From assembly GCA_005843825.1 (NCBI GenBank), contig SZXX01000052.1, positions 1-46,882 on the forward strand: DNA of 46,882 bases. Reading direction: 5' to 3'. Of this stretch, positions 5,246 through 25,360 are shown piece after piece (within the stretch, counting starts at the first letter, position 1; the number at the start of each line of letters is the position of its first letter). The notes below the pieces were generated by a model. That model made no database searches, was not told the DNA's origin, and saw nothing but the letters and a program-made list of their open reading frames with translations. This DNA is from Chlorobium sp. (GTDB lineage Bacteria > Bacteroidota > Chlorobiia > Chlorobiales > Chlorobiaceae). The position numbers and the translations under genes are program-made.

Positions 5246-7237
5246 ATGCCTAAACCGAGATACCTCACAAAGTCACGTTTCAAGCTTGGTATGGAGTGCC
5301 CCACAAAGCTCTATTATACCGGTAATCCGCTCTACCCCGATAAATCCATTGATGATCCGTTTCTTATTGCTCTGGCTGATGGCGGCTATCAGGTAGGGGA
5401 GCTTGCGAAGCAATACATTCCCGGCGGTCATGAAATAACGTCAACAATTCATGCAGATGCTGAGCGCGAGACCATGGCGCTCTTGCAGCAGGAGAACGTC
5501 ATCATTTATGAGGCTGCCATAAGGTTCGAGTCGCTCTTCATACGCATTGATATTCTTAAAAAAGAGGGGAATCGCCTTAACCTTATTGAGGTGAAGTCAA
5601 AGTCGTTTGACTCTGCTGATGAGGATCTCCCTTTTTTAAATACCAAAGGAGCGCTTGCATCATCGTGGAAGCCCTACCTCTATGATATTGCTTATCAGGC
5701 TCATGTGCTGAAGAGTGCGATGCCTGGTCATATAATATCTTCTTACCTCATGATTGCCGACAAGGCGGCTAAATGCCCGACTGATGGCCTGAACCAGAAG
5801 TTCAGAATCAGAAGAGATCATCGTAACCGAAAAATGGTAACAGTTGATACTGCTCTTTCGGCTGCAGACCTCTCTGTGCCCCTTTTAGCTGTTCTCCCTG
5901 TTGATGAGTATGTCGGGATGATATGGAACGGAGCAGGCACAGATGATTTTATCGAGAGAGGGTTTGAGGCTACCATTGCATGGCTTGCTGAAGCCTATGC
6001 TAAGAATGAAAAGATAGCCCCTTCTCCTGGCGGCAAGTGCCGCGATTGCTCATTTACCTGCAATGATGAGGAGCTTCAAAAAGGTCTTAAAAGCGGATTC
6101 AGGGAGTGTTGGAGAGAGACTTTCAATTGGACAGATCGTGATTTTAAAGAGGAGAGTGTTCTTGCCCTTTGGGACTTCAGGAAAAAGGATGAGGCGATAG
6201 CATCTGGGAAACGTAAACTTGCCGATATCTCGGAAGATGACCTTGGTTTGAAAGGGGATGAGAAGCCAGGCTTATCAAGATCACAGCGCCAGCTCTTGCA
6301 GATAAAGAAAAGCAGGAGTGGCAATACTGAGCCATATTTTGACAGGGAGAATCTTGCTGCAGAGATGGAGCAGTGGACCTATCCCTTGCACTTCATAGAC
6401 TTTGAGACCACCATTAACCCGATACCCTTTACCAAAGGTGTAGCTCCCTATGAAATGATAGGATTTCAATACTCTCACCACTTTGTAGAGCGTGATGGAA
6501 GCGTTCGTCATGCAGGTGAGTATCTTTGTGCTGAGCCTGGGGTATTTCCAAACTTCAGCTTTGTACGGGCCCTGAAAAAAGAACTCGAAGTTGACAAGGG
6601 AACCATATTCCGATACAGCAATCATGAGAATACTGTTCTCCTTGCCATCTACCGGCAGCTGGCTGCATCCGAGAACCCTCCTAAAGACATTGCTGATCTT
6701 CAGAAATTCATTGTTTCGATTACCCATGCAGATGATAACAAAGGGCTCTTCTGGGAAAGTCCCCGAAACATGGTCGATCTCTGGTATCTGGTAAAGCGAT
6801 ATTACTACGATCCCTATACGAAGGGGTCGAATTCCATCAAATATGTTTTACCGGCAGTGCTCAACAGTTCAGATTTTCTGAAACAGAAATACAGTAAGCC
6901 GGTTTATGGAGCATCATCAGGCATCCCAAGCCTGAATTTCAGAGACTGGAAATGGATAGAGACTGATGATAGTGGTATAGTTAAAGACCCTTATTCACTG
7001 TTGCCGAAGCTGTTCAACGATATCGATGAAAAGAATCAAGCGCTCCTGCTCAGCAGCGATGAAGATAATCTCATTAAGAATGGAGGCGCAGCTATGACGG
7101 CTTTTGCCAGACTTCAGTTTGAAGAAATGTCAGACTATGAACGGCCGGAGATTAAAGTAGGCTTGAAAAAATATTGTGAGCTTGATACAATGGCGATGGT
7201 TATGATTTATGAGGCATGGAGGGAGTGGATTTATTAA
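5246..7237 (+). CDS. DUF2779 protein: Cas4-like Fe-S nuclease fold fused to an RNase H-like fold
   Basis: The 663-residue protein matches the DUF2779 family by overall pattern. The N-terminal third has the PD-(D/E)XK core: Asp102 in RIDIL and Glu115-Val-Lys117 in LIEVKSKS, as in Cas4/RecB-type nucleases. Cys18 together with Cys265, Cys268 and Cys272 (CRDCSFTC) forms the four-cysteine set that holds a 4Fe-4S cluster in Cas4 and AddB. The C-terminal half starts with HFIDFETT (Asp385, Glu387) and ends with YCELDTMAM (Asp647), which resembles a DEDD-type exonuclease core. It is therefore likely a two-nuclease DNA or RNA processing enzyme. Its substrate is unknown. The start lacks a clear ribosome binding site. 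A small nuclease-like gene follows 18 bases later. Confidence 0.75.
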   Translation: MPKPRYLTKSRFKLGMECPTKLYYTGNPLYPDKSIDDPFLIALADGGYQVGELAKQYIPGGHEITSTIHADAERETMALLQQENVIIYEAAIRFESLFIRIDILKKEGNRLNLIEVKSKSFDSADEDLPFLNTKGALASSWKPYLYDIAYQAHVLKSAMPGHIISSYLMIADKAAKCPTDGLNQKFRIRRDHRNRKMVTVDTALSAADLSVPLLAVLPVDEYVGMIWNGAGTDDFIERGFEATIAWLAEAYAKNEKIAPSPGGKCRDCSFTCNDEELQKGLKSGFRECWRETFNWTDRDFKEESVLALWDFRKKDEAIASGKRKLADISEDDLGLKGDEKPGLSRSQRQLLQIKKSRSGNTEPYFDRENLAAEMEQWTYPLHFIDFETTINPIPFTKGVAPYEMIGFQYSHHFVERDGSVRHAGEYLCAEPGVFPNFSFVRALKKELEVDKGTIFRYSNHENTVLLAIYRQLAASENPPKDIADLQKFIVSITHADDNKGLFWESPRNMVDLWYLVKRYYYDPYTKGSNSIKYVLPAVLNSSDFLKQKYSKPVYGASSGIPSLNFRDWKWIETDDSGIVKDPYSLLPKLFNDIDEKNQALLLSSDEDNLIKNGGAAMTAFARLQFEEMSDYERPEIKVGLKKYCELDTMAMVMIYEAWREWIY

Positions 7238-7255
7238 TAAATAAATAATATTACC

Positions 7256-7894
7256 ATGCGACCTTTATTTACTGTACATGCTGGGGAATTTATTGTTGGC
7301 GAATTCATTGAACAAACTTTTCGAAATTTAAATGTATGGCTTCCGTCAAAGGATACGGGTATTGATTTTCTTGTGACCGATAAGAAGAATAAGTCTACTG
7401 TATCTTTGCAAGTTAAATTATCAAGAGACTATAGACAACCTGAAGCTGTCGATGACTTTCAGCAGGGGCTTGTTGCTGCTGGTTGGTTGACATTATCCCA
7501 TGAAAAAATTGAGAAGTCTCAGGCTAATTATTGGGTGTTTGTGCTTGTGTCAAATGAAAGAAAATGGACCCCACATTTTATTGTTATCAAACCTGTTGAC
7601 TTGCTGGCGCGATTAAGAAGAATTCATGGTAATAAAAGGAGTTACCATTTTTATCCTTGGATTATAAATACAAATGATAATTCTAGGATTGCATTGCAAG
7701 GAAGAGGGCTGAACGCTAACGAAAGGTTGTCTCTTATGAGAGATGGTATTAAGGACGAAGATCGTAATTTTACTACATTTTTAGAGAATTGGAGCGCTCT
7801 TGAAAAGTTAAACAAAATAATTTTGGGATTGCAATCATATAAAGTTGCAGTGCTTTGCCGGAGTGAGACCAGACTTTTGCACCTGTTATTTTGA
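7256..7894 (+). CDS. PD-(D/E)XK-like protein of unknown family
   Basis: The 212-residue protein contains DTGIDFLV (Asp37) and then SLQVKLS (Gln52-Val-Lys54), the D...(D/E/Q)xK signature of restriction-endonuclease-like folds. Glu16 or Glu19 could complete the site. I recall homologous uncharacterised proteins sharing the VWLPSKDTGID and VSLQVK blocks and ending around FLENWSALEKLN, so the core appears full length. The last twenty residues look unrelated and may come from readthrough into degraded DNA. It starts 18 bases after the DUF2779 gene, suggesting the two are cotranscribed. AT-rich codon use (for example many TTA and AAT codons) suggests transfer. Confidence 0.6.
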   Translation: MRPLFTVHAGEFIVGEFIEQTFRNLNVWLPSKDTGIDFLVTDKKNKSTVSLQVKLSRDYRQPEAVDDFQQGLVAAGWLTLSHEKIEKSQANYWVFVLVSNERKWTPHFIVIKPVDLLARLRRIHGNKRSYHFYPWIINTNDNSRIALQGRGLNANERLSLMRDGIKDEDRNFTTFLENWSALEKLNKIILGLQSYKVAVLCRSETRLLHLLF

Positions 7895-8019: not shown

Positions 8020-8275
8020 TTATACCAGCGGTATTGGAGCTTTCGGTTTCACATCAGCCCCCTTCGCCCTGCTCAGCTCCTTATCAATCTTCTTAATCAG
8101 ATCATCATCCGGCAATGCAATGCTCGCCAGCTGCTTGTTCAGTTCTGTCTGCAGCGTCGCTGAGTTGACGAGCGCAGCCGCTTCCCGTGCCGCCTTGATG
8201 AAGTTCACGCTCAGCCAGCTTGCCGCGCAGGACAAAATCGTACGTTAAGAGATTCAGTGTGATCGTATCATGCTT
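8020..8275 (-). pseudogene. frameshifted remnant of an unrecognised gene
   Basis: On the minus strand one frame reads HDTITLNLLTYDFVLRGKLAE and then, after a one-frame shift near 8222-8232, another frame continues SVNFIKAAREAAALVNSAT and on to IALPDDDLIKKIDKELSRA, with a stop just before 8020. The two parts join into a coherent amphipathic helical protein, and the first part has no start codon. This looks like a decayed gene or its C-terminal fragment rather than a short intact gene. I do not recognise the family. Confidence 0.4.
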
Positions 8276-8440: not shown

Positions 8441-9304
8441 ATGAGCAGAAAATTCAGAAATACGGACAATGAACATACCTCTCCATTCGAGCAGATCAAG
8501 AGGACAAATGATGCTGGTCAGGAATTTTGGTCAAGCCGTGAGTTTGCAGAAGTGTTGGGTTACGGTGACTACCGTAATTTTGAGTCCGTCGTTGAAAAAG
8601 CCAAGATAGCCTGCTTCAACAGTGCCCATCCTATTGAGGATCATTTCGTTGATGTCACCGAAATGATCGAAATCGGCAAAGGCGGGCAACGCGCTGTCAA
8701 AACGATGTTTATGTCGCGGTATGCCTGCTATCTTGCAATACAGAATGCTGATCCAAAAAAAGAGCAGGTAGCGCAGGGGCAGACATATTTTGCGGTACAA
8801 ACACGACGGCAGGAATTAACAGACGAAAATATTGAGGAAGAAAGGCGAGTTCTCTTGCGTAACGAGATCCGTCTGCATAATGTACAACTGGCAGATGCAG
8901 CAAAGAATGCAGGAGTCGTAGAGCCCCTGGATTATGCCATTTTTCAGAATCATGGCTATATGGGCTTGTACGGAGGATTAAGGCAAGATGATATCCACAG
9001 ATTAAAAGGATTGAAAAAGAGCCAGAAAATTCTGGATCACATGGGAAGTACGGAATTGGCAGCCAACCTGTTTCGAGCTACACAAGCAGAAGAAAAACTT
9101 CGCAGAGACAAGGTCAAAGGCAAAAAAGCAGCAAATCAGACACACCAGGAAGTCGGCGCAAAAGTCAGAAAAACCATTCAAGAATTGGGTGGTACAATGC
9201 CAGAGAAGTTGCCAGCAGTTGAAAGTATAAAGAAAATCGAAACCAAACAGCGAAAGAAACTTGGTGGTTCAACTCATTCGCCAAAAGAAATAACAGAAGA
9301 CTGA
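8441..9304 (+). CDS. dinD: DNA damage-inducible protein D (DinD)
   Basis: The 287-residue product is close in length to E. coli DinD (about 274). Hallmarks are the N-terminal BRO-N-like start SPFEQIKRTND followed by FWSSREFAEVLGYGDYRNFE, the central SRYACYLAIQNADPKKEQVAQGQ, YFAVQTRRQE, and the C-terminal block NHGYMGLYGGL with DHMGSTELAANLFRATQ. E. coli DinD is an SOS-induced protein that binds RecA filaments and inhibits strand exchange. I could not find a convincing LexA operator directly upstream, so SOS control here is unproven. DinD homologues are common passengers of defence islands, which fits the neighbouring nuclease genes and DarG remnant. Confidence 0.88.
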   Translation: MSRKFRNTDNEHTSPFEQIKRTNDAGQEFWSSREFAEVLGYGDYRNFESVVEKAKIACFNSAHPIEDHFVDVTEMIEIGKGGQRAVKTMFMSRYACYLAIQNADPKKEQVAQGQTYFAVQTRRQELTDENIEEERRVLLRNEIRLHNVQLADAAKNAGVVEPLDYAIFQNHGYMGLYGGLRQDDIHRLKGLKKSQKILDHMGSTELAANLFRATQAEEKLRRDKVKGKKAANQTHQEVGAKVRKTIQELGGTMPEKLPAVESIKKIETKQRKKLGGSTHSPKEITED

Positions 9305-9936: not shown

Positions 9937-10012
9937 AAGGGGGGAATAATTTATTTCAGGGGGTACCCGTTTTTTTTAAAGTGTCGGACACCTTATGTCC
10001 TACTACCCTTTC
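9937..10012 (+). repeat. left arm of a ~75-bp inverted repeat around a Sel1 gene
   Basis: The arm begins AAGGGGGGAATAATTTATT, contains the internal palindrome GTGTCGGACAC (9981-9991) and a TGTCCTAC box. Its reverse complement aligns along its length with 10958-11030, with a few mismatches and small gaps. The arrangement resembles the ends of a transposable or REP/MITE-like element. Confidence 0.65.
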
Positions 10013-10073
10013 TATACTGACAGTAAGAAGATGAAATCATTTCCAATCATACTGATTAAAAGAAGGGGGATGT

Positions 10074-10889
10074 ATGCTGCTTGAATTTGATACCACCGAG
10101 GTGCTGTGCGACAGAGCATTACAATATTTTGAAGGTGACGGCGTTTCCGTGGATTTAACAGAGGGATTGAGGCTTTTCTTGCTGGCGGCTGAACGCGGGA
10201 ATCCTCATGCCCAGCTTTTTCTCGGGATCATGAGCGAATACGGCAAAGGAATGGCGCAGGATTTTGCCCAGGCCGCAAGATGGTATCGCATGGCCGCAGA
10301 GCAGGGTGATGAATTTGCGCAATACTGCCTTGGATTGCTTTACAAAAACGGCACAGGGGTGGAGCGGAACGAGACGGAAGCAGCACATTGGTTCCGTTTA
10401 TCTGCCCTGCAGGGTTATGCTGATGCCCAATGCAATCTTGGAGGGATGTACAAAAATGGCAGCGGCGTAAGGCAGGATGAGGCTGAAGCCGTCAAATGGT
10501 ACCGGTTGGCAGCTGAACAGAACAATGCTGTAGCCCAACGCTTTCTTGGGCTGGCTTACAGGATTGGCAAATGCGTCAAAATGGACGCTGCTCGGGCTGT
10601 GACATGGTTCCGGTTAGCGGCCGGGCAAGGTGATGCATACGCTCAGTTTTACCTTGGTTTAATGTATGAGGAGGGTGACTCTGTCAGGCAGGACAAAACG
10701 GAAGCAGCGTATTGGTACCAGCTGGCCGCTGACCAGGGAAATTCTCACGCGCAATACAGCCTTGGATTGCTCTACAAAAACGGCACAGGGGTGGAAGAGG
10801 ATGAGGCTGAAGCAGTCAAATATTTCTGGCTCTCTGCCGATCAAGGCAATGAAGGGGCTCAGTATGTTCTGGACTCGATGGAGATATAA
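10074..10889 (+). CDS. Sel1-repeat protein
   Basis: The ATG follows GAAGGGGG at 10062-10069. The 271-residue protein is made almost entirely of about seven Sel1 repeats of 36 residues, with units such as GDEFAQYCLGLLYKNGTGVE followed by TEAAHWFRLSA. The repeats pack as a superhelix of paired helices used for protein binding. No signal peptide is present, so it should be cytoplasmic, unlike the many periplasmic Sel1 proteins. Two units (around 10330 and 10750) are nearly identical in DNA, with the shared string TACAAAAACGGCACAGGGGT, suggesting recent repeat duplication. The gene stands alone between the two arms of a long inverted repeat, so it may be cargo of a mobile element. Confidence 0.85.
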   Translation: MLLEFDTTEVLCDRALQYFEGDGVSVDLTEGLRLFLLAAERGNPHAQLFLGIMSEYGKGMAQDFAQAARWYRMAAEQGDEFAQYCLGLLYKNGTGVERNETEAAHWFRLSALQGYADAQCNLGGMYKNGSGVRQDEAEAVKWYRLAAEQNNAVAQRFLGLAYRIGKCVKMDAARAVTWFRLAAGQGDAYAQFYLGLMYEEGDSVRQDKTEAAYWYQLAADQGNSHAQYSLGLLYKNGTGVEEDEAEAVKYFWLSADQGNEGAQYVLDSMEI

Positions 10890-10930
10890 AACAGTGCTGA
10901 GACGTGAGTGCTGAGTGCCGAGGGAAGAAA

Positions 10931-10954
10931 GTTGGCAGTTGGCAGTTGGCAGTT
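10931..10954 (+). repeat. tandem GTTGGCA repeat
   Basis: Three consecutive GTTGGCA units followed by GTTAA lie just after the Sel1 gene and just inside the right inverted-repeat arm. A two-unit version, then GTTGGCGG, is at 31710-31724, so this is a dispersed short repeat of the genome rather than a local feature. Confidence 0.7.
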
Positions 10955-10957
10955 AAG

Positions 10958-11030
10958 AAAAAAGGTAGGACATCTGGTGTCCGATACTATCAAAAAGGGT
11001 CACCTGCTGGAATTAATTATTCCCCCCTTT
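10958..11030 (-). repeat. right arm of a ~75-bp inverted repeat around a Sel1 gene
   Basis: Read on the plus strand it has GGTAGGACAT, GGTGTCCGATAC, AAAAAGGGT and then AATTAATTATTCCCCCCTT, the inverted counterpart of 9937-10012. The two arms enclose about 0.95 kb with a single gene. Confidence 0.65.
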
Positions 11031-11116
11031 TTTATAGGTGTCCAGTTTGTCCAGTTTTGACGGATTTAGTGCGTGTTATCCGATTTTCTGAAGCTTTCAG
11101 CTGTTGGTTTTAACGG

Positions 11117-12130
11117 TTAAAACAGGGAGAGGCTTTCTACTTTCTGGACCCTGACATCTTCGTACAGCTTTGCTGTTGTGAGCAGTTCGTATTTTATCAT
11201 TTCACGGAGTTCCTGGGGCTCCAGGACTTCGGCTTCACTTCCGTAGCGCATGACCCAGCGTTTGACGGCGTCGAGGGCTCCGACCTGCATTTTCAGGATG
11301 AGTGAGCCATCTTTCAGCTCTTCAATCTCCTGGCTAGGGTGCCACTGGTGCTCCCTGATCCACTGTGACTGGAAAGGAGAAAACCGGATTGCAACACTGC
11401 TTGTCTGATTATCGTGGATCTGGTCGAATGCCTGAGCTATGTAGGTCTCAAATGAAAAGGTCTTCTGAGCGGTGAAGTGCTTTTTGGAGAGTGAGACGGT
11501 TCGGATACGATTGATGGCAAAGGTCCGGAAATCGCCCCGCAGCTCGCAATAGCCGATTATATACCAGGTATCGCTCTGCTGAGAGTAGTGAAACATGTAG
11601 GGATGCACGGTCCTCTCCGTTACCTCCTGATTCCAGGCAGCCCGGTAGGTTATGGTAATCTTGAGCCTGCTCCGTATGGCATCTTCAATGGCGGCAAAAA
11701 AGCGGGGATCAAAAGCCGGCGGTGAGGGTTTTTCAAATGAGTAGATGTTGAGAAACTCATTGGAGGCGGATGCTTCGGGAAGGTACTGCCGCATTTTGTC
11801 GAGTGCCCGGCTGATTTCATCGAATAATGGTGAGCCTTCACACTGTGCAAGCACCTTTTTTGTAGCAATAAGGGCGGCAGCCTCCCCTCGCTCAAGAAGA
11901 GTTGAGGGCAGAAAATCCCAGCCGGGCTTTTCGTAATAGTAGCCTCTCTTCTTCTGGTCGTATTCAATAGGCGCATGAAGCAGGTCGCGCATATAGTCGA
12001 CATCGCGCTGGATGCTTTTTGTTGAGACCTCAAAATACTCTGCAACCGTTGCGCAGTTGGGATAATGGTTGCTCTGCAGCTGCTGGTGCATATACTGCAT
12101 ACGGACAAGCGGTGGCCGGGATTGCCTCAT
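11117..12130 (-). CDS. HTH and WYL-domain transcriptional regulator
   Basis: The 337-residue protein begins with a winged helix-turn-helix (about residues 8-60; CATVAEYFEVSTKSIQRDVD is the recognition region) followed by a WYL domain with TWYIIGYCELRGDFRTFAINR (about residues 190-215) and a C-terminal WCX-like extension (residues about 240-325). WYL domains sense ligands, in several cases nucleic acid or nucleotide, and these regulators often control phage-defence and DNA-repair genes. Its position at the edge of a nuclease and dinD island fits such a role, though the gene points toward, and ends convergent with, that island. A perfect 10-bp inverted repeat lies 44 bases upstream of the start (12174-12194) but belongs to a dispersed repeat family. 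Confidence 0.85.
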   Translation of the reverse strand: MRQSRPPLVRMQYMHQQLQSNHYPNCATVAEYFEVSTKSIQRDVDYMRDLLHAPIEYDQKKRGYYYEKPGWDFLPSTLLERGEAAALIATKKVLAQCEGSPLFDEISRALDKMRQYLPEASASNEFLNIYSFEKPSPPAFDPRFFAAIEDAIRSRLKITITYRAAWNQEVTERTVHPYMFHYSQQSDTWYIIGYCELRGDFRTFAINRIRTVSLSKKHFTAQKTFSFETYIAQAFDQIHDNQTSSVAIRFSPFQSQWIREHQWHPSQEIEELKDGSLILKMQVGALDAVKRWVMRYGSEAEVLEPQELREMIKYELLTTAKLYEDVRVQKVESLSLF

Positions 12131-12171
12131 GAATTCAGCGGTTCAGATTGGATGAGAGTGAAGAAAGAAAT

Positions 12172-12202
12172 AGGTCTTATAGGACCTATAAGACTTATAA
12201 AA
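12172..12202. repeat. CTTATAGG-type palindromic repeat, locus A
   Basis: GTCTTATAGG and CCTATAAGAC form a perfect 10-bp inverted repeat with one base between them (12174-12194), followed by TTATAAAA. Similar strings recur at 31741-31786 and 40462-40497, each between genes. Confidence 0.7.
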
Positions 12203-12261
12203 GCCAGCGTTTTTGATGCTGCAGATTGCCATGTGGCGCCCCGAAGGGCGCTGAGGGGACG

Positions 12262-13314
12262 TCAGGAATTTTTGAGTTCTTTCAGTTCGGCTTCGAGCAG
12301 ATTGAGTTTGTCTCTCATGGCGCCGAGGTTGCGCAGCATTGCTTCGTGCTTGAGCTGTTCGCGCATCGGCTGCGCCGGGTATCCTCGAAGGGCGATGCCG
12401 GGCTCGAGGAAGGACTTTGAAATGCCGGCCTGGGCTGCGACGTGTATCCGGTCGGCAAGCTCAAGGTGGCCTGCAAAACCGGCTTGGCCTCCTACCATAC
12501 ACTGACGGCCTAAGGTTACGCTTCCTGAAATTCCCGCCTGTGCAGCGATGACGGTATCTTCACCGATCCGGCAGTTGTGGGCGATCTGAACCAGGTTATC
12601 GATTTTAGCACCCCGGCCGATAACGGTACTACCCATGGTGGCTCTGTCTATAGTGGCATTTGCTCCGATTTCGACATCATCGCCAATTTCAACAATGCCC
12701 ATCTGGGGAATCTTTACATACGATCCATCGCTCTGCGGAGCAAAACCGAACCCATCTGCTCCGATAACGGTTCCTGAATGAACAACAACTCTTTTGCCTA
12801 TCAGGGAGCCATCGTAAATGGTCACATTCGGGAATAAAACTGAATTATCGCCCAGAGAGATATCTTGAAACAGAACGGTATTAGGACCGATAACGACGTT
12901 GCTGCCAATCGTACATCGGTCGCCAATGACAGCATATTCTCCGATTGAGGCACCTTCACCAAGAGTAACACCTTCGCCGATAACTGCTGAGATTGCAATG
13001 CCCTTATGGGCTATTGTCCGTGGGGTTGCAAATTTCTGGAGAAGAAAAACGAAGGCAGTATAGGGGTCGCCTACTTTAAGAAAAGAGGTGCGATGGCTGA
13101 ACTCATCAACACTCAGCGATTTGTGTACAATAACCAGCGATGCTTCGGTAGTGGCAAGATATCTTGCATACTTGTCGTTGGCTATAAAGCTGACCTGACC
13201 AATTTGCGCGGATTCGATTTTGGCCGGGCCGGAAATCAACTCATCTACTTTACCAACCAGCTCAACGGCACCGACAAACCGGGCGAGATAGTCCCTGATC
13301 TCCTGAATAGTCAT
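12262..13314 (-). CDS. lpxD: UDP-3-O-acylglucosamine N-acyltransferase LpxD
   Basis: The third enzyme of lipid A synthesis: it transfers a 3-hydroxyacyl chain from acyl carrier protein to the 2-amino group of UDP-3-O-acylglucosamine in the cytoplasm. The 350-residue product has the N-terminal uridine-binding domain (residues 1-100), then a long left-handed beta helix of hexapeptide repeats such as [20 protein letters not shown], the conserved [19 protein letters not shown] block with the catalytic His (residue about 242), and a C-terminal helix ([12 protein letters not shown]) used in trimer packing. Length is typical. It stands alone here, divergent from prs across 180 bases. Confidence 0.95.
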
Positions 13315-13493
13315 ATTTATTTTATAAATAACAGTGCTTTAGAAAGAGGAAAAAAATAGTTAATTTTTCGGCCTTTTTAATTATATTTGAGTTCTCGTGA
13401 TTATTCAATCCATGTATGGGAAAACGGTTACGGATGCTCTGGAGAGTAAATCGATTGCCATAATATAACCCCTTTCATCTGAATGTGCAGGAC

Positions 13494-14468
13494 ATGATGG
13501 AAAAACCCATTAAAATTTTCGCTGGACGCAGCAACCCGGCCCTCGCTGAGAAGATTGCTGAGTACCTCGAAATGTCACTTGGCAATGCAAAGATTGAAAA
13601 CTTTTCTGACGGAGAGATTTCGGTCAATTATTTTGAATCGATCCGTGGTTCGGATCTCTTCATTATACAGTCCACCAATCCTCCCGGAGATAATCTTTTA
13701 GAGCTGCTGATCATGATTGATGCAGCAAGAAGGTCTTCAGCAGCAAGAATTACCGCTGTCATTCCCTATTACGGCTATGCCCGTCAGGACAGGAAGGACA
13801 GGCCTCGCGTCGCCATTACAGCAAAGCTGGTTGCCAACCTGCTTACGGAGGCGGGAGCAAACCGCATTTTAACCATGGATCTGCATGCGCCTCAGATTCA
13901 GGGATTTTTTGATATTCCGTTTGATCACCTCTATTCAAGCGTGATACTTATTGACCATATCCGTCATAGAGAGTTTCGCGAAAACCTGGTTGTGGCCTCT
14001 CCTGATGTCGGCGGCGTAAAGCTGGCAAGAAAATTTGCCGAAGAACTGGGTACTGATCTGGTCATTGTCGACAAACGCCGACCAGCAGCCAACGTTGCGG
14101 AAGTCATGAATATTATCGGTGATGTCAGCGGCAAAAATGTGCTTCTTGTTGATGACATGATTGATACTGCAGGAACCCTGGTCAACGCTGCGAAAGCTAT
14201 CCGTGATGCAGGCGGCCTTAAAATCTATGCGGCAGCAACCCATCCGATTCTTTCAGGACCGGCTATCAAAAGAATTGATGCGTCAATACTTGAAAAAGTA
14301 ATTGTTACCGATTCAGTTATTACGAGCCACGAATATTCACCGAAAATTGAAACAGTAACTGTCAGTAACCTTTTCGGTGAGGCTATCAAGCGTATATATG
14401 AAGATGATTCTGTCAGCTGCCTTTTTGACAGCAAGAATATCATTGAAAAACTTACGAACCTTCACTAA
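13494..14468 (+). CDS. prs: ribose-phosphate pyrophosphokinase
   Basis: Makes PRPP from ribose 5-phosphate and ATP, the precursor of purines, pyrimidines, NAD, His and Trp. The 324-residue protein shows the family motifs in order: KIFAGRSNPALA at the start, FSDGEISVNYFESIRG, YYGYARQDRKDRPR (ATP-binding flexible region), MDLHAPQIQGFFDIPFDHLY, and the PRPP loop NVLLVDDMIDTAGTL. A second ATG three bases downstream (13497) or a GTG at 13485 are alternative starts. rplY follows after 21 bases, so they form an operon, a pairing also known in other bacteria (prs with ctc). Confidence 0.95.
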   Translation: MMEKPIKIFAGRSNPALAEKIAEYLEMSLGNAKIENFSDGEISVNYFESIRGSDLFIIQSTNPPGDNLLELLIMIDAARRSSAARITAVIPYYGYARQDRKDRPRVAITAKLVANLLTEAGANRILTMDLHAPQIQGFFDIPFDHLYSSVILIDHIRHREFRENLVVASPDVGGVKLARKFAEELGTDLVIVDKRRPAANVAEVMNIIGDVSGKNVLLVDDMIDTAGTLVNAAKAIRDAGGLKIYAAATHPILSGPAIKRIDASILEKVIVTDSVITSHEYSPKIETVTVSNLFGEAIKRIYEDDSVSCLFDSKNIIEKLTNLH

Positions 14469-14489
14469 ACACAAGCGATAAAAGAGATA

Positions 14490-15092
14490 ATGGAAACTAT
14501 TGTATTGGGGGTTGAACCTCGCGTTATTAAAAAGAATGCAGCTGATAAACTGCGCAAGACAGGCGTTGTGCCAGCAGTTATCTACCATAAAGGCGAAGAA
14601 ACAGTTGCGGTAGGCGTCAATGAACTTGCATTGAGGAAGCTGGTACACTCAGCTGAGTCGCATATTATTGATTTACAGTTCCCGGATGGAAAGATTAAAC
14701 GTTCTTTTATAAAGGACGTTCAGTTTCACCCGGTAACCGACAGAATTATTCATACCGACTTTCAGCTTTTCTCTGCTGATGAGATCATTGAGCTAGAAGT
14801 ACCTGTTGCTGTTACAGGTGAGAGTGCCGGTGTGGAGAAAGGCGGCAAACTGCAGATTATCAAACATGCGCTTACAATCAAGGGGATGCCGGAACATATG
14901 CCTGATCACTTCGTCATCGATGTTACCGCACTTGAAATCGGACACTCCATTCATGTAAAGGAGCTGCCAATGGATGCCTATACTGACCTCGTCATTATGG
15001 ATGATCCAGATACTCCTGTTATTACAGTACTTGCCTCGAAAAAAGAAGCGGAAGCCACTGCAGAAGCTCCTGCTGCAACTCCAGCAAGCTGA
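14490..15092 (+). CDS. rplY: 50S ribosomal protein L25 (general stress protein Ctc type)
   Basis: The 200-residue protein is of the long, two-domain Ctc/TL5 type. The N-terminal part (VEPRVIKKNAADKLRKTGVV then PAVIYHKGEE) binds 5S rRNA; the C-terminal beta domain runs from about residue 95 (DEIIELEVPV, LQIIKHALTIKGMPEHMPDH) to 185. It ends with an Ala/Thr/Pro-rich tail (residues 186-200). It lies 21 bases after prs and is followed by a strong terminator, so prs-rplY is a two-gene unit. Confidence 0.95.
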   Translation: METIVLGVEPRVIKKNAADKLRKTGVVPAVIYHKGEETVAVGVNELALRKLVHSAESHIIDLQFPDGKIKRSFIKDVQFHPVTDRIIHTDFQLFSADEIIELEVPVAVTGESAGVEKGGKLQIIKHALTIKGMPEHMPDHFVIDVTALEIGHSIHVKELPMDAYTDLVIMDDPDTPVITVLASKKEAEATAEAPAATPAS

Positions 15093-15133
15093 ACACTGTT
15101 CACTTTGTTTTCCAAAGAGGCTATTTACAATTC

Positions 15134-15170
15134 AAAGCTGCTTTTCTTCAGGGAAAAGCAGCTTTTTTTT
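15134..15170 (+). terminator. rho-independent terminator after rplY
   Basis: AAAGCTGCTTTTC and GAAAAGCAGCTTT form a 13-bp stem with a six-base loop, followed by a run of T. It closes the prs-rplY unit. Confidence 0.9.
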
Positions 15171-15227
15171 ATAGGTTATCCTTAATTTCCAAAGCCTGAC
15201 TTACCATTCACCGAAAGCCACACAAGC

Positions 15228-16721
15228 TTGAAAACAGAGAGCGGCCCATCATCACCCCTGCACAAAACGGCTACCAATGCAGGACCTATCCGATTACAGA
15301 ATAAAGGATCGATTATTTTTCTTGCAGTCTCATTCATTACCTTTCTCCTTATTCTTTTCGCAAAGGCTGACCTGGTACTGATCAGTTTCCACTCCTTGTA
15401 CACTGCGGCAAGGCTTTTTATCAGCGCACCAGAATCTTTACAGGCAATTTTTACCTCCGAGATCCTTGAATTCTGGATAGGAGCCATCTACCTCTGTGCA
15501 CTACCGTTAACTCTTATACTTGTTACGAGAAAGAAGTTTCGGAAACGTTCTGTAGAAAAGAACAGACCTGAACAAACGGAACTAAGCCTTGGTAAAATAA
15601 GCTTCAGGGCTTTCATGCGCCAGTCAATAGCCCTGTATGCGTCAGCTGTAATTTTTATCCTTTATTCTCTGGCGTTCCTTGCGCCGTTCATAGTACCATT
15701 CAGTCCTTATGATCAACAGGATTTTCTGGTTACCGCTTATCAGCCGCCATTCTCCCGGCTGCAGGCATTGGTTCTCAAACAGCCTAAGACTCTGGCAATC
15801 CCGATACAGACAGGGAGCGGAACAACAGTTGAGCTTGCAAACAGCCTGATCAGTGATTTCCAGAAGCTGAAAACCCGCAATGAGCCAAATACTGTCAGGT
15901 TTATCAATGAGTACCGGATTGATAAAGATCAGGTTATTTACCGTCAGGGCATACGTACCAAGAGTATCGGTATTACAGAACTTGCCGGAACCGGTAAAAC
16001 ACTTGCACTGGCAGGCGGAGAGAAACAACCTGATTTTGTGATTTCGCGTATTTTTATGTTTGGTACTGACCAATATGGACGAGACATTCTCAGCCGTGTC
16101 ATCTACGGATCAAAAATATCGCTTTCCATTGGCTTTCTTGTTGTGTTGATCTCAGTCAGCCTCGGCACGATTATCGGGGTATCTTCTGGTTATTTCGGAG
16201 GCTGGGTGGATGCCACCATGATGAGGATTGTCGATATCCTGATAGCATTCCCTGCCCTTTTTCTCATTCTCATTATCATTGCAACTTTCGGAAACTCGAT
16301 ATACCTGATTGTGATCACGCTCTCCTTTACAGGATGGATGGGAGTGGCAAGAATTGTGAGAAGCCAGGTGCTTTCGCTTAAAGAGCAGGAGTTCATTCTT
16401 GCTGCACAATCACTCGGGCTTTCGAATATGAGAATTATATTCAGGCACCTTGCACCGAATACCCTGACTCCGGTTATTATTGCCGCAACACTGAGGATCG
16501 GCAGCATTATTTTGACTGAAGCGGGGCTCTCCTTTCTTGGTCTTGGAGTTCAGCCGCCCACACCGAGCTGGGGAAACATTATCAATGAAGGGCGTGACAG
16601 TCTTTTGAACTACTGGTGGATTTCAACATTCCCCGGTATTGCCATCCTGACTACTGTAGTGTGCTTCAACCTTATCGGCGACGGTGTCCGTGATGCCCTC
16701 GACCCAAGAATGAGAGGCTGA
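15228..16721 (+). CDS. ABC transporter inner-membrane permease, DppC/OppC type
   Basis: Permease of a peptide or nickel-type ABC importer or related transporter. The start is a TTG at 15228; no better start lies upstream. The 497-residue protein is longer than the usual 300. It has two N-terminal hydrophobic segments (residues about 27-50 and 85-103), a DppC N-terminal block (ALYASAVIFILYSLAFLAPF), an inserted soluble region (about 165-285), then the core with FGTDQYGRDILSRVIYGSKI and the EAA loop EFILAAQSLGLSNMRIIFRH (about 388-407), and the family ending GDGVRDALDPRMRG. The extra N-terminal domain and periplasmic insert seem a lineage feature. ATPase and binding-protein genes are not adjacent. 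A Nudix gene begins two bases after its stop. Confidence 0.85.
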   Translation: MKTESGPSSPLHKTATNAGPIRLQNKGSIIFLAVSFITFLLILFAKADLVLISFHSLYTAARLFISAPESLQAIFTSEILEFWIGAIYLCALPLTLILVTRKKFRKRSVEKNRPEQTELSLGKISFRAFMRQSIALYASAVIFILYSLAFLAPFIVPFSPYDQQDFLVTAYQPPFSRLQALVLKQPKTLAIPIQTGSGTTVELANSLISDFQKLKTRNEPNTVRFINEYRIDKDQVIYRQGIRTKSIGITELAGTGKTLALAGGEKQPDFVISRIFMFGTDQYGRDILSRVIYGSKISLSIGFLVVLISVSLGTIIGVSSGYFGGWVDATMMRIVDILIAFPALFLILIIIATFGNSIYLIVITLSFTGWMGVARIVRSQVLSLKEQEFILAAQSLGLSNMRIIFRHLAPNTLTPVIIAATLRIGSIILTEAGLSFLGLGVQPPTPSWGNIINEGRDSLLNYWWISTFPGIAILTTVVCFNLIGDGVRDALDPRMRG

Positions 16722-16723
16722 CC

Positions 16724-17284
16724 ATGGCGATAGATCACGACCCGGGGTGCTGGACTACCCTCGACACGACATACCTTTATAACAAGCCCTGGCTCACCAT
16801 GCGTCAGGACAGCGTTCAGCTTCCGAACGGCAGAGTCATCGACGATTATTACATCTGGGAGTTTCCACCCTGGTGCAATGTACTGGCTATTACAAAAAGC
16901 CAGGAATTCGTGCTTATTCGGCAATACAGGCATGGAATAGGCAAGGTTTATTATGAGCTTCCGGCAGGAGTTCATGACAAAGCTGGAGAATCAGTGCTTG
17001 AGTCGGCACAACGGGAACTACTCGAAGAGACAGGCTTTGGCGGGGGATCATGGAGTGCGTTGATGGAACTTAGCGCCAACCCTGCCTTGCAGAATAATAT
17101 TACCTACAGCTTTCTGGCTGTTGGGGTTGAAGAGATCGGCAAACAGGAGCTTGACGCCACTGAAGAGATCAGTGTGCACCTCGTCACTCTTGATGAACTC
17201 CGCTCCATTGTGCTTGACGGCCGGATGATGCAGTCACTGCATGCTGCGCCTATACTGAAATACCTTTTGACACAAGCCATCTGA
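16724..17284 (+). CDS. Nudix hydrolase, ADP-ribose pyrophosphatase-like
   Basis: The 186-residue protein has an N-terminal beta domain typical of ADP-sugar pyrophosphatases and the Nudix box (residues about 80-103): G in PAGVHDKAGES, then the metal-binding helix RELLEETGFGG. Such enzymes split ADP-ribose or other nucleoside diphosphate-X compounds, cleaning up toxic intermediates. LIRQYRHGIGKVYYELPAG is characteristic of this subfamily. Substrate cannot be fixed. It starts two bases after the ABC permease stop, so they are cotranscribed, and a small conserved gene follows 22 bases later. Confidence 0.88.
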   Translation: MAIDHDPGCWTTLDTTYLYNKPWLTMRQDSVQLPNGRVIDDYYIWEFPPWCNVLAITKSQEFVLIRQYRHGIGKVYYELPAGVHDKAGESVLESAQRELLEETGFGGGSWSALMELSANPALQNNITYSFLAVGVEEIGKQELDATEEISVHLVTLDELRSIVLDGRMMQSLHAAPILKYLLTQAI

Positions 17285-23876: not shown

Positions 23877-23958
23877 GCCCGAATGGCGGAATTGGTAGAC
23901 GCACGCGTTTCAGGGACGCGCGCCGCAAGGTGTAGGAGTTCGAGTCTCCTTTCGGGCA
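23877..23958 (+). tRNA. tRNA-Leu (anticodon CAG)
   Basis: GCCCGAA at 23877-23883 pairs with TTCGGGC at 23951-23957, followed by discriminator A. The anticodon arm CGCGT-TTCAGGG-ACGCG gives anticodon CAG, reading CUG. The variable arm GCGCCGCAAGGTGT is long, as in class II leucine tRNAs, and the T arm AGGAGTTCGAGTCTCCT is standard. CCA is not encoded. Confidence 0.95.
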
Positions 23959-24059
23959 CAAACAATCTTCCTCGCGATATGCATGTATGTACACTCGGCA
24001 ATATGACAACAGTCTATTCGATTCAGTCTGACTTTTACACACACACAACACACAGGCAT

Positions 24060-24946: not shown

Positions 24947-25360
24947 AAGCTGAAACCAGAAGTGTGCAGTCGCCGTGTAGCATCAGGCTACGGCGGAGGA
25001 AAGTCCGAACTTCACAGGGCAGGGTGCCGGTCGAGAGTCTAAGACTCAAGCCTGGGGATGACGGCGCAAGCCGGTTATCACAGATAGTGCAACAGAAAAC
25101 AAACCGCTCCGGGCAACCGGAGTAAGGGTGAAATGGCGGTGTAAGAGACCACCAGACATTACAGCAATGTAATGTGCTTGGCAAACCTCCCCGAAGCAAG
25201 GCTAAATAGGAAAACTTTCTCCTCTCGGGGGGATAAGAGTGGCCCGCTCAAATCCGAAAGGAGAGTTTTCGGGTAAGCCGCATTAGATAAATGGCTGCAG
25301 TTTTAACCGGCTTCGGCCGGTTAATCCACAGAATTCGGCTTATAGCTTCGGTTTCAGCTT
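24947..25360 (+). ncRNA. rnpB: RNase P RNA, class A
   Basis: The catalytic RNA of RNase P, which trims tRNA 5' leaders. AAGCTGAAACC (24947-24957) pairs with GGTTTCAGCTT (25350-25360) as helix P1. The conserved core is plain: GAGGAAAGTCCGAACTTCAC, CAGGGTGCCGG, AAGGGTGAAATGGCGGTGTA then AGAGACCACCA, and near the 3' end ACAGAATTCGGCTTATAG. Length of 414 bases is usual for class A. P1 is followed by a run of T (25359-25366), which doubles as terminator. Confidence 0.95.

Follow-up and report, generated by a model that had tools for sequence, protein, structure and literature searches.

The locus analysed here raises the question of whether two adjacent genes for nuclease-like proteins constitute a functional pair. 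They lie on a stretch of 46,882 nucleotides (the window) from a Chlorobium source genome of 2.55 Mb in 57 contigs. ORF1 (5246..7237, forward strand) encodes a DUF2779 protein of 663 aa, and ORF2 (7256..7894, forward strand) encodes a protein of 212 aa that is unrelated to ORF1. Both are real ORFs, read in the same direction and spaced by 18 nt, as the initial annotation had described. That annotation took them for a candidate pair of nuclease-fold proteins in defence or repair and for the window's best candidate for a little-studied nucleic-acid-processing system. Conservation and structure prediction bore out the two nuclease folds, and "little-studied" proved apt for DUF2779, which the literature searched names only as a prediction.

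The identity of ORF1 as DUF2779 (PF11074) was confirmed by the Pfam profile search, with a score of 71.7 bits (cut-off 23.3). PF11074 was the sole family reported at E up to 1, and the Cas4 profile (Cas_Cas4) gave no match. PADLOC, searched at E up to 1, likewise had nothing, and ORF1 was not found in PHROGs or the phage collection. The general Pfam profile scan showed no cas genes among the ORF1 neighbours scanned; a separate Cas4 match is located on another contig of the source genome. DUF2779 is RNHL family F.17 of the 3'-5' exonuclease clade, with a DUF83 (PD-(D/E)XK) domain (Majorek 2014, PMC3985635). ORF1 is a member with the same combination of an RNase H-like exonuclease and DUF83, and this dual architecture is not new, having been described in 2014. 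Within F.17, ORF1 is distinguished as the longer form (about 630-660 aa) in which both active sites are kept. The literature searched held no assay of any DUF2779 protein, only its designation as a predicted 3'-5' exonuclease and PD-(D/E)XK protein.

The conservation of ORF1 was determined by aligning 21 homologues and by a residue census covering 36 long homologues and another 16 short ones (19 rows in the short column, since three sequences were counted twice). The N-terminal part (residues 1-264; 5246..6037, forward strand) is a predicted Cas4/RecB-like PD-(D/E)XK domain carrying C18, D102, E115, K117 and Q151. The Cas4-like site D102, E115 and K117 (RecB motifs II and III) was kept in 23 of the 36 long homologues and was conserved in the mobile group, of which ORF1 is a member. 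The 13 long homologues that had lost the site all belong to one vertically inherited chromosomal group, and a few short forms are also variable at E115 or K117. In the QhxxY motif, Q151 is present and the Tyr position is Leu155. C18 and the segment C265-x2-C268-x19-C288 (6038..6109, forward strand) provide four cysteines that were invariant in 36/36 long and all short homologues, and these are probable Fe-S ligands as judged by conservation. The Cas4-like set of the initial annotation stood for D102, E115, K117, C18, C265 and C268; its C272 was not conserved among the homologues of the census, and the fourth invariant cysteine is C288. Cas4 itself has four cysteines, one N-terminal and three C-terminal (PMC4176176, PMC5704561). 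ORF1 is like Cas4 in fold, in the RecB motif II/III residues and in this arrangement of cysteines, but it is missed by the Cas_Cas4 profile, is fused to a DEDDy domain, has a spacing of 19 before the last cysteine and has Leu at the QhxxY Tyr.

The C-terminal part of ORF1 (residues 378-663; 6377..7234, forward strand) resembles a DEDDy 3'-5' exonuclease domain of the family-B-polymerase type, with D385-x-E387, E461, D511 and Y643-x3-D647. D385, E387, E461 and D511 were invariant in both the alignment and the census, and Y643 and D647 were present in every homologue extending that far. The family B DNA polymerase DEDDy exonuclease, RNase T and ExoI share with ORF1 the fold (Z up to 12.4), the D-x-E of motif I and the Y-x3-D of motif III. 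ORF1 differs from them in motif II, whose acid is usually Asp in these enzymes and which we take, by motif, to be the invariant Glu461, and it has no polymerase. The dN/dS of ORF1 against a same-genus orthologue was about 0.05-0.07, indicating strong purifying selection.

The AlphaFold2 model of ORF1 was modest, with a pLDDT of 65.4 and values below 50 in the Cys region 258-360, in which the C265-C288 segment lies. By VIA-align, residues 2-264 matched Cas4 7mi5 (Z 10.8, rmsd 4.7, 169 aligned), and residues 378-663 matched the PolB exonuclease region of 5mdn_A (Z 12.4, rmsd 3.4, 175 aligned). The latter match and the invariant residues agree with the DEDD-like C-terminal half assigned initially. 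The ORF2 model had a pLDDT of 88.6, and its best structural match by VIA-align was I-Ssp6803I (2ost; Z 11.3, rmsd 4.0, 132/148 residues), followed by Hjc (Z 8.4) and the SPARDA DREN nuclease (Z 7.2). Foldseek returned no match at E 0.001 with either model, and the fold statements on ORF1 and ORF2 rest on VIA-align.

In ORF2, the D37 and Q52-x-K54 already pointed out in the initial annotation were invariant in 37/37 relatives, along with E11. The search pattern contained FT[IV]HAGE, so that the count for E11 is selection-biased and the counts for D37, Q52 and K54 are unbiased. By its predicted core fold and its acidic/Lys catalytic set, ORF2 is a stand-alone nuclease of the PD-(D/E)XK superfamily with an I-Ssp6803I-like fold. 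Most of its homologues stop at 178-195 aa. In the window protein, 25 further residues form a C-terminal tail (residues 188-212; 7817..7891, forward strand), which is absent from homologues, is modelled with low confidence and is probably read-through after a junction.

Two readings of ORF2 were weighed. It is quite possible, if somewhat short of an even chance, that ORF2 is an Mrr-like restriction endonuclease encoded by a solitary gene, and that it may depend on modification. A weak similarity to Mrr_cat_2 was seen in 31/37 family members, and the nuclease segment KDTG(I/V)D...Q-x-K of LlaBIII, a type ISP restriction enzyme (4xqk), resembles the active-site segment of ORF2. ORF2 is without the helicase, methyltransferase or target-reading domain of LlaBIII. 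Against this reading, no DNA-reading domain or methyltransferase recurred beside ORF2, and every Pfam match of the window protein was below the cut-off (Mrr_cat 16.2 of 21, Mrr_cat_2 15.1 of 22 and DUF4365 14.3 of 24.3 bits). PADLOC gave no meaningful score, with E 0.033 only.

The other reading, a free-standing homing endonuclease spread through cleavage of intergenic sites, is conceivable but on balance doubtful. I-Ssp6803I was the top structural match (Z 11.3 vs 8.4 for the next), and relatives of ORF2 occur sporadically, at 68 genome loci across many phyla and on one viral contig, without conserved neighbours. The nearest relatives (57-61%) are mostly Proteobacteria, not Chlorobi, and the same-order copy is only 38-39% identical; ORF2 therefore apparently moves horizontally alone. 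Against homing, no group I intron was found with Rfam at the ORF2 loci of 8 sources including the window, and the scanned loci showed no close tRNA pattern, so that an intron-borne or tRNA-inserted homing gene was rejected. Moreover, the active-site segment is also similar to the LlaBIII nuclease domain and the SPARDA DREN nuclease; for DREN, a resemblance to I-Ssp6803I and the use of D41, Q60 and K62 have been reported. With I-Ssp6803I and DREN, ORF2 shares the fold, and its D...Q-x-K set is that reported for DREN; it differs from them as a stand-alone gene with no intron found and no Argonaute or APAZ part. In the collections searched, the nearest named relatives were Chlorobi: Candidatus Chlorobium antarcticum was among the ORF2 matches, and Prosthecochloris aestuarii was the nearest named relative for ORF1. 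In Candidatus Chlorobium antarcticum (L056, 4634-8561), the ORF2 homologue lies directly behind a gene that, by eye, encodes an AddA/UvrD-like helicase-nuclease, unlike the partner in the window.

The surroundings of the two genes in the window were compared with other genomes. Window 9937-17278 is colinear with genome G157 (90%), and the sequence before ~9.9 kb is not colinear. Because this colinearity holds only from ~9.9 kb on, ORF1, ORF2 and dinD are placed in a variable island, whose border with the core is at ~9930. The same-genus genome G356 has apparent prophage structural genes (by eye only) at the same border, which, given these genes, may be an integration hotspot. As for the neighbours listed in the initial annotation, dinD was confirmed downstream of ORF2 (8441-9304; NF008573, 395.5 bits; PADLOC candidate PDC-S13). 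G356 is without the dinD segment, which would fall between blocks matching window 8058-8219 and 9907 onward; the former block, short and 89% identical to part of G356 contig 31, holds no gene that could be recognised in the window. No darG remnant could be detected: ORF 8020-8235, the only ORF tested nearby, had no convincing Pfam, PADLOC or PDB match. The WYL gene is present but is a chromosomal paralogue. Its orthologue, at 85-95% identity, is a chromosomal gene of G157, G356 and G083, and no DUF2779 was present on the stretches fetched around that orthologue, so that the WYL gene of the window was rejected as a partner of ORF1. In G356, a second WYL gene, 61% identical to that of the window, adjoins the DUF2779 gene. 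The count of promoters and terminators around ORF1-ORF2 was not above that in shuffles. The RNase P RNA (24953-25358) and the tRNA-Leu gene (23877-23959) of the window are ordinary. The genes around ORF1 and ORF2 in the window make up no recognisable defence system; the defence or repair context suggested initially was found around DUF2779 relatives elsewhere.

That context was determined at about 24 long-form DUF2779 loci that do not belong to the vertical clade. At 7 of these mobile-group loci, WYL was within 2 kb of DUF2779; it was immediately upstream in L051 (64 nt) and L160 (about 80 nt), and downstream and overlapping in L130. This proximity is far above chance, assuming 1.1-2 WYL genes per 3.8 Mb genome, and is to be read as association only because islands concentrate WYL and restriction genes. 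Neighbour scans of DUF2779 members also revealed type I restriction subunits in 4 (type I R) and BrxL in 2. In L156 PglZ adjoins BrxL, and L157 has an SbcCD operon. Plasmids carry the gene as well: a conjugative Prosthecochloris plasmid has a copy of ORF1 with 62% identity, a Comamonas plasmid has a DUF2779 copy with type I restriction genes nearby, and in an Aliarcobacter plasmid DUF2779 lies in a run with SbcCD-like genes. The recurrent location of long-form DUF2779 genes beside WYL, type I restriction, BREX and SbcCD genes is new here. A BREX survey of 2026 mentions neither Cas4, RecB nor exonuclease, and a Cas4 survey describes a different fusion, UvrD-Cas4, that is also beside restriction and WYL genes (PMC4176176, PMC5704561). 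Two distant genomes, G291 and G142, encode close to WYL and DUF2779 a member of a family of ~200 aa (L036, 2299-2934; L044, 12236-12826) that had no Pfam or NCBIfam match. For the G291 member, assignment as a SLOG protein was a motif impression only and was dropped when Pfam, NCBIfam and PDB gave no support.

The vertical clade (13 genomes; L052, L125-L129 and L131-L137) showed a different pattern. Its DUF2779 gene is flanked by a murB-like gene and a gene for an M48-type peptidase-like protein, with ssb in the neighbourhood. As read from the conserved residues, these proteins have lost the Cas4-like active site and kept the four cysteines and the DEDDy exonuclease residues, which is also new here.

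These contexts bear on the role of ORF1, which we propose to be a DNA-end-processing enzyme with an Fe-S-stapled Cas4/RecB-like nuclease domain and a DEDDy 3'-5' exonuclease domain. With both domains in one chain, the enzyme could trim the two strands of free or damaged DNA. ORF1 would be an accessory nuclease that moves with plasmids and islands in the vicinity of restriction, BREX and SbcCD genes, frequently with a WYL regulator next to it. We infer DNA as the substrate, the polarity, the presence of an Fe-S cluster and a role in defence. Several points weigh against this account: the overall model is weak (pLDDT 65, Cys region under 50), islands gather WYL and restriction genes in any case, and the neighbours in the window form no recognisable defence system. 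The main rival is that ORF1 is a housekeeping exonuclease in RNA turnover or DNA repair, with its island occurrence incidental. Outside the mobile group, DUF2779 is vertically inherited in the conserved murB-like/ssb neighbourhood, and this clade kept the DEDDy set though the Cas4-like residues were lost. DUF2779 is also present in Mycoplasma, and a transposon mutant of the Mycoplasma bovis DUF2779 gene showed deficient growth when cultured together with host cells, which fits housekeeping better than defence. On the other hand, the mobile group of ORF1 keeps both active sites, is sporadic in the genus (7/65 genomes, several broken), and adjoins WYL, restriction, BREX or SbcCD genes or rides plasmids. 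We regard the housekeeping role as less likely for ORF1 than DNA-end processing.

A more specific and still less likely proposal is that the long-form DUF2779 gene with both sites and an adjacent WYL repressor, sometimes with the ~200 aa protein (G291, G142), forms a mobile defence cassette that has so far escaped recognition, or supplies BREX or type I restriction with an additional nuclease, and would degrade invading DNA from both ends. Of this cassette, only the nuclease gene would be present in the window.

Finally, the pairing of ORF1 and ORF2 was assessed in other genomes. DUF2779 was near ORF2 relatives at 0/68 genome loci (fetched flanks up to 8 kb; some loci shortened by contig ends), and no conserved ORF2 neighbour was found, with no family recurring in >5 of the 68. 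DUF2779 was present anywhere in 8/50 ORF2-bearing genomes, compared with a background of 42/296. Among these 296 genomes of the phylum, 42 had DUF2779 and 3 had ORF2, and both were present only in this genome (Fisher p 0.37). The same-genus survey of 65 genomes yielded DUF2779 in 7, several of them broken. There were full-length copies in G356 (91% identity), G291 (87%) and G352 (82%), a broken copy in G213, and C-terminal remnants in G044 and G098. The decaying same-genus copies (L037, 4677-6253; L038, 4013-4288; L039, near 8739-8806) comprise one central deletion and two C-terminal remnants.

The junction itself (7229..7255, unstranded) points in the same direction. The alignable homology of the window to G356, G352, G213 and G044 stops at 7228, just before the ORF1 stop codon. 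Downstream of DUF2779, the sequence is unrelated, differs in each aligned genome and has no ORF2, and same-genus DUF2779 copies at 79-91% identity are without ORF2; the G291 contig stops 132 bases past the match, so its downstream gene is not visible. A conserved ORF1-ORF2 pair, whose absence elsewhere the initial annotation had itself named as refuting its proposal, was rejected, since adjacency was found at 0/68 loci, co-occurrence was at background and same-genus DUF2779 occurred without ORF2. A functional two-nuclease operon for defence or repair is very improbable, because the same strand, the 18-nt spacing and the intact nuclease residues of both proteins are outweighed by an arrangement seen in no other genome searched, downstream sequence that differs at every compared DUF2779 copy and an ORF2 C-terminus that resembles a junction product.

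We favour ordinary juxtaposition of two independent nucleases. A genome rearrangement in a strain-variable island would have placed ORF1, an accessory enzyme of DNA-end processing, beside ORF2, a sequence-specific or weakly specific endonuclease moving on its own; we assign this reading a probability of roughly 0.6. Showing that ORF2 is unrelated spares the chase after a false two-gene system. DUF2779 is a sizeable family in which two nuclease sites are predicted and for which the literature searched gave no assay. The residue census indicates that the cysteine set and the DEDDy exonuclease are its indispensable part and that the Cas4-like site is optional, and the DUF2779 neighbourhoods point to members suited for phage assays. 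The DUF2779 family deserves a biochemical test.
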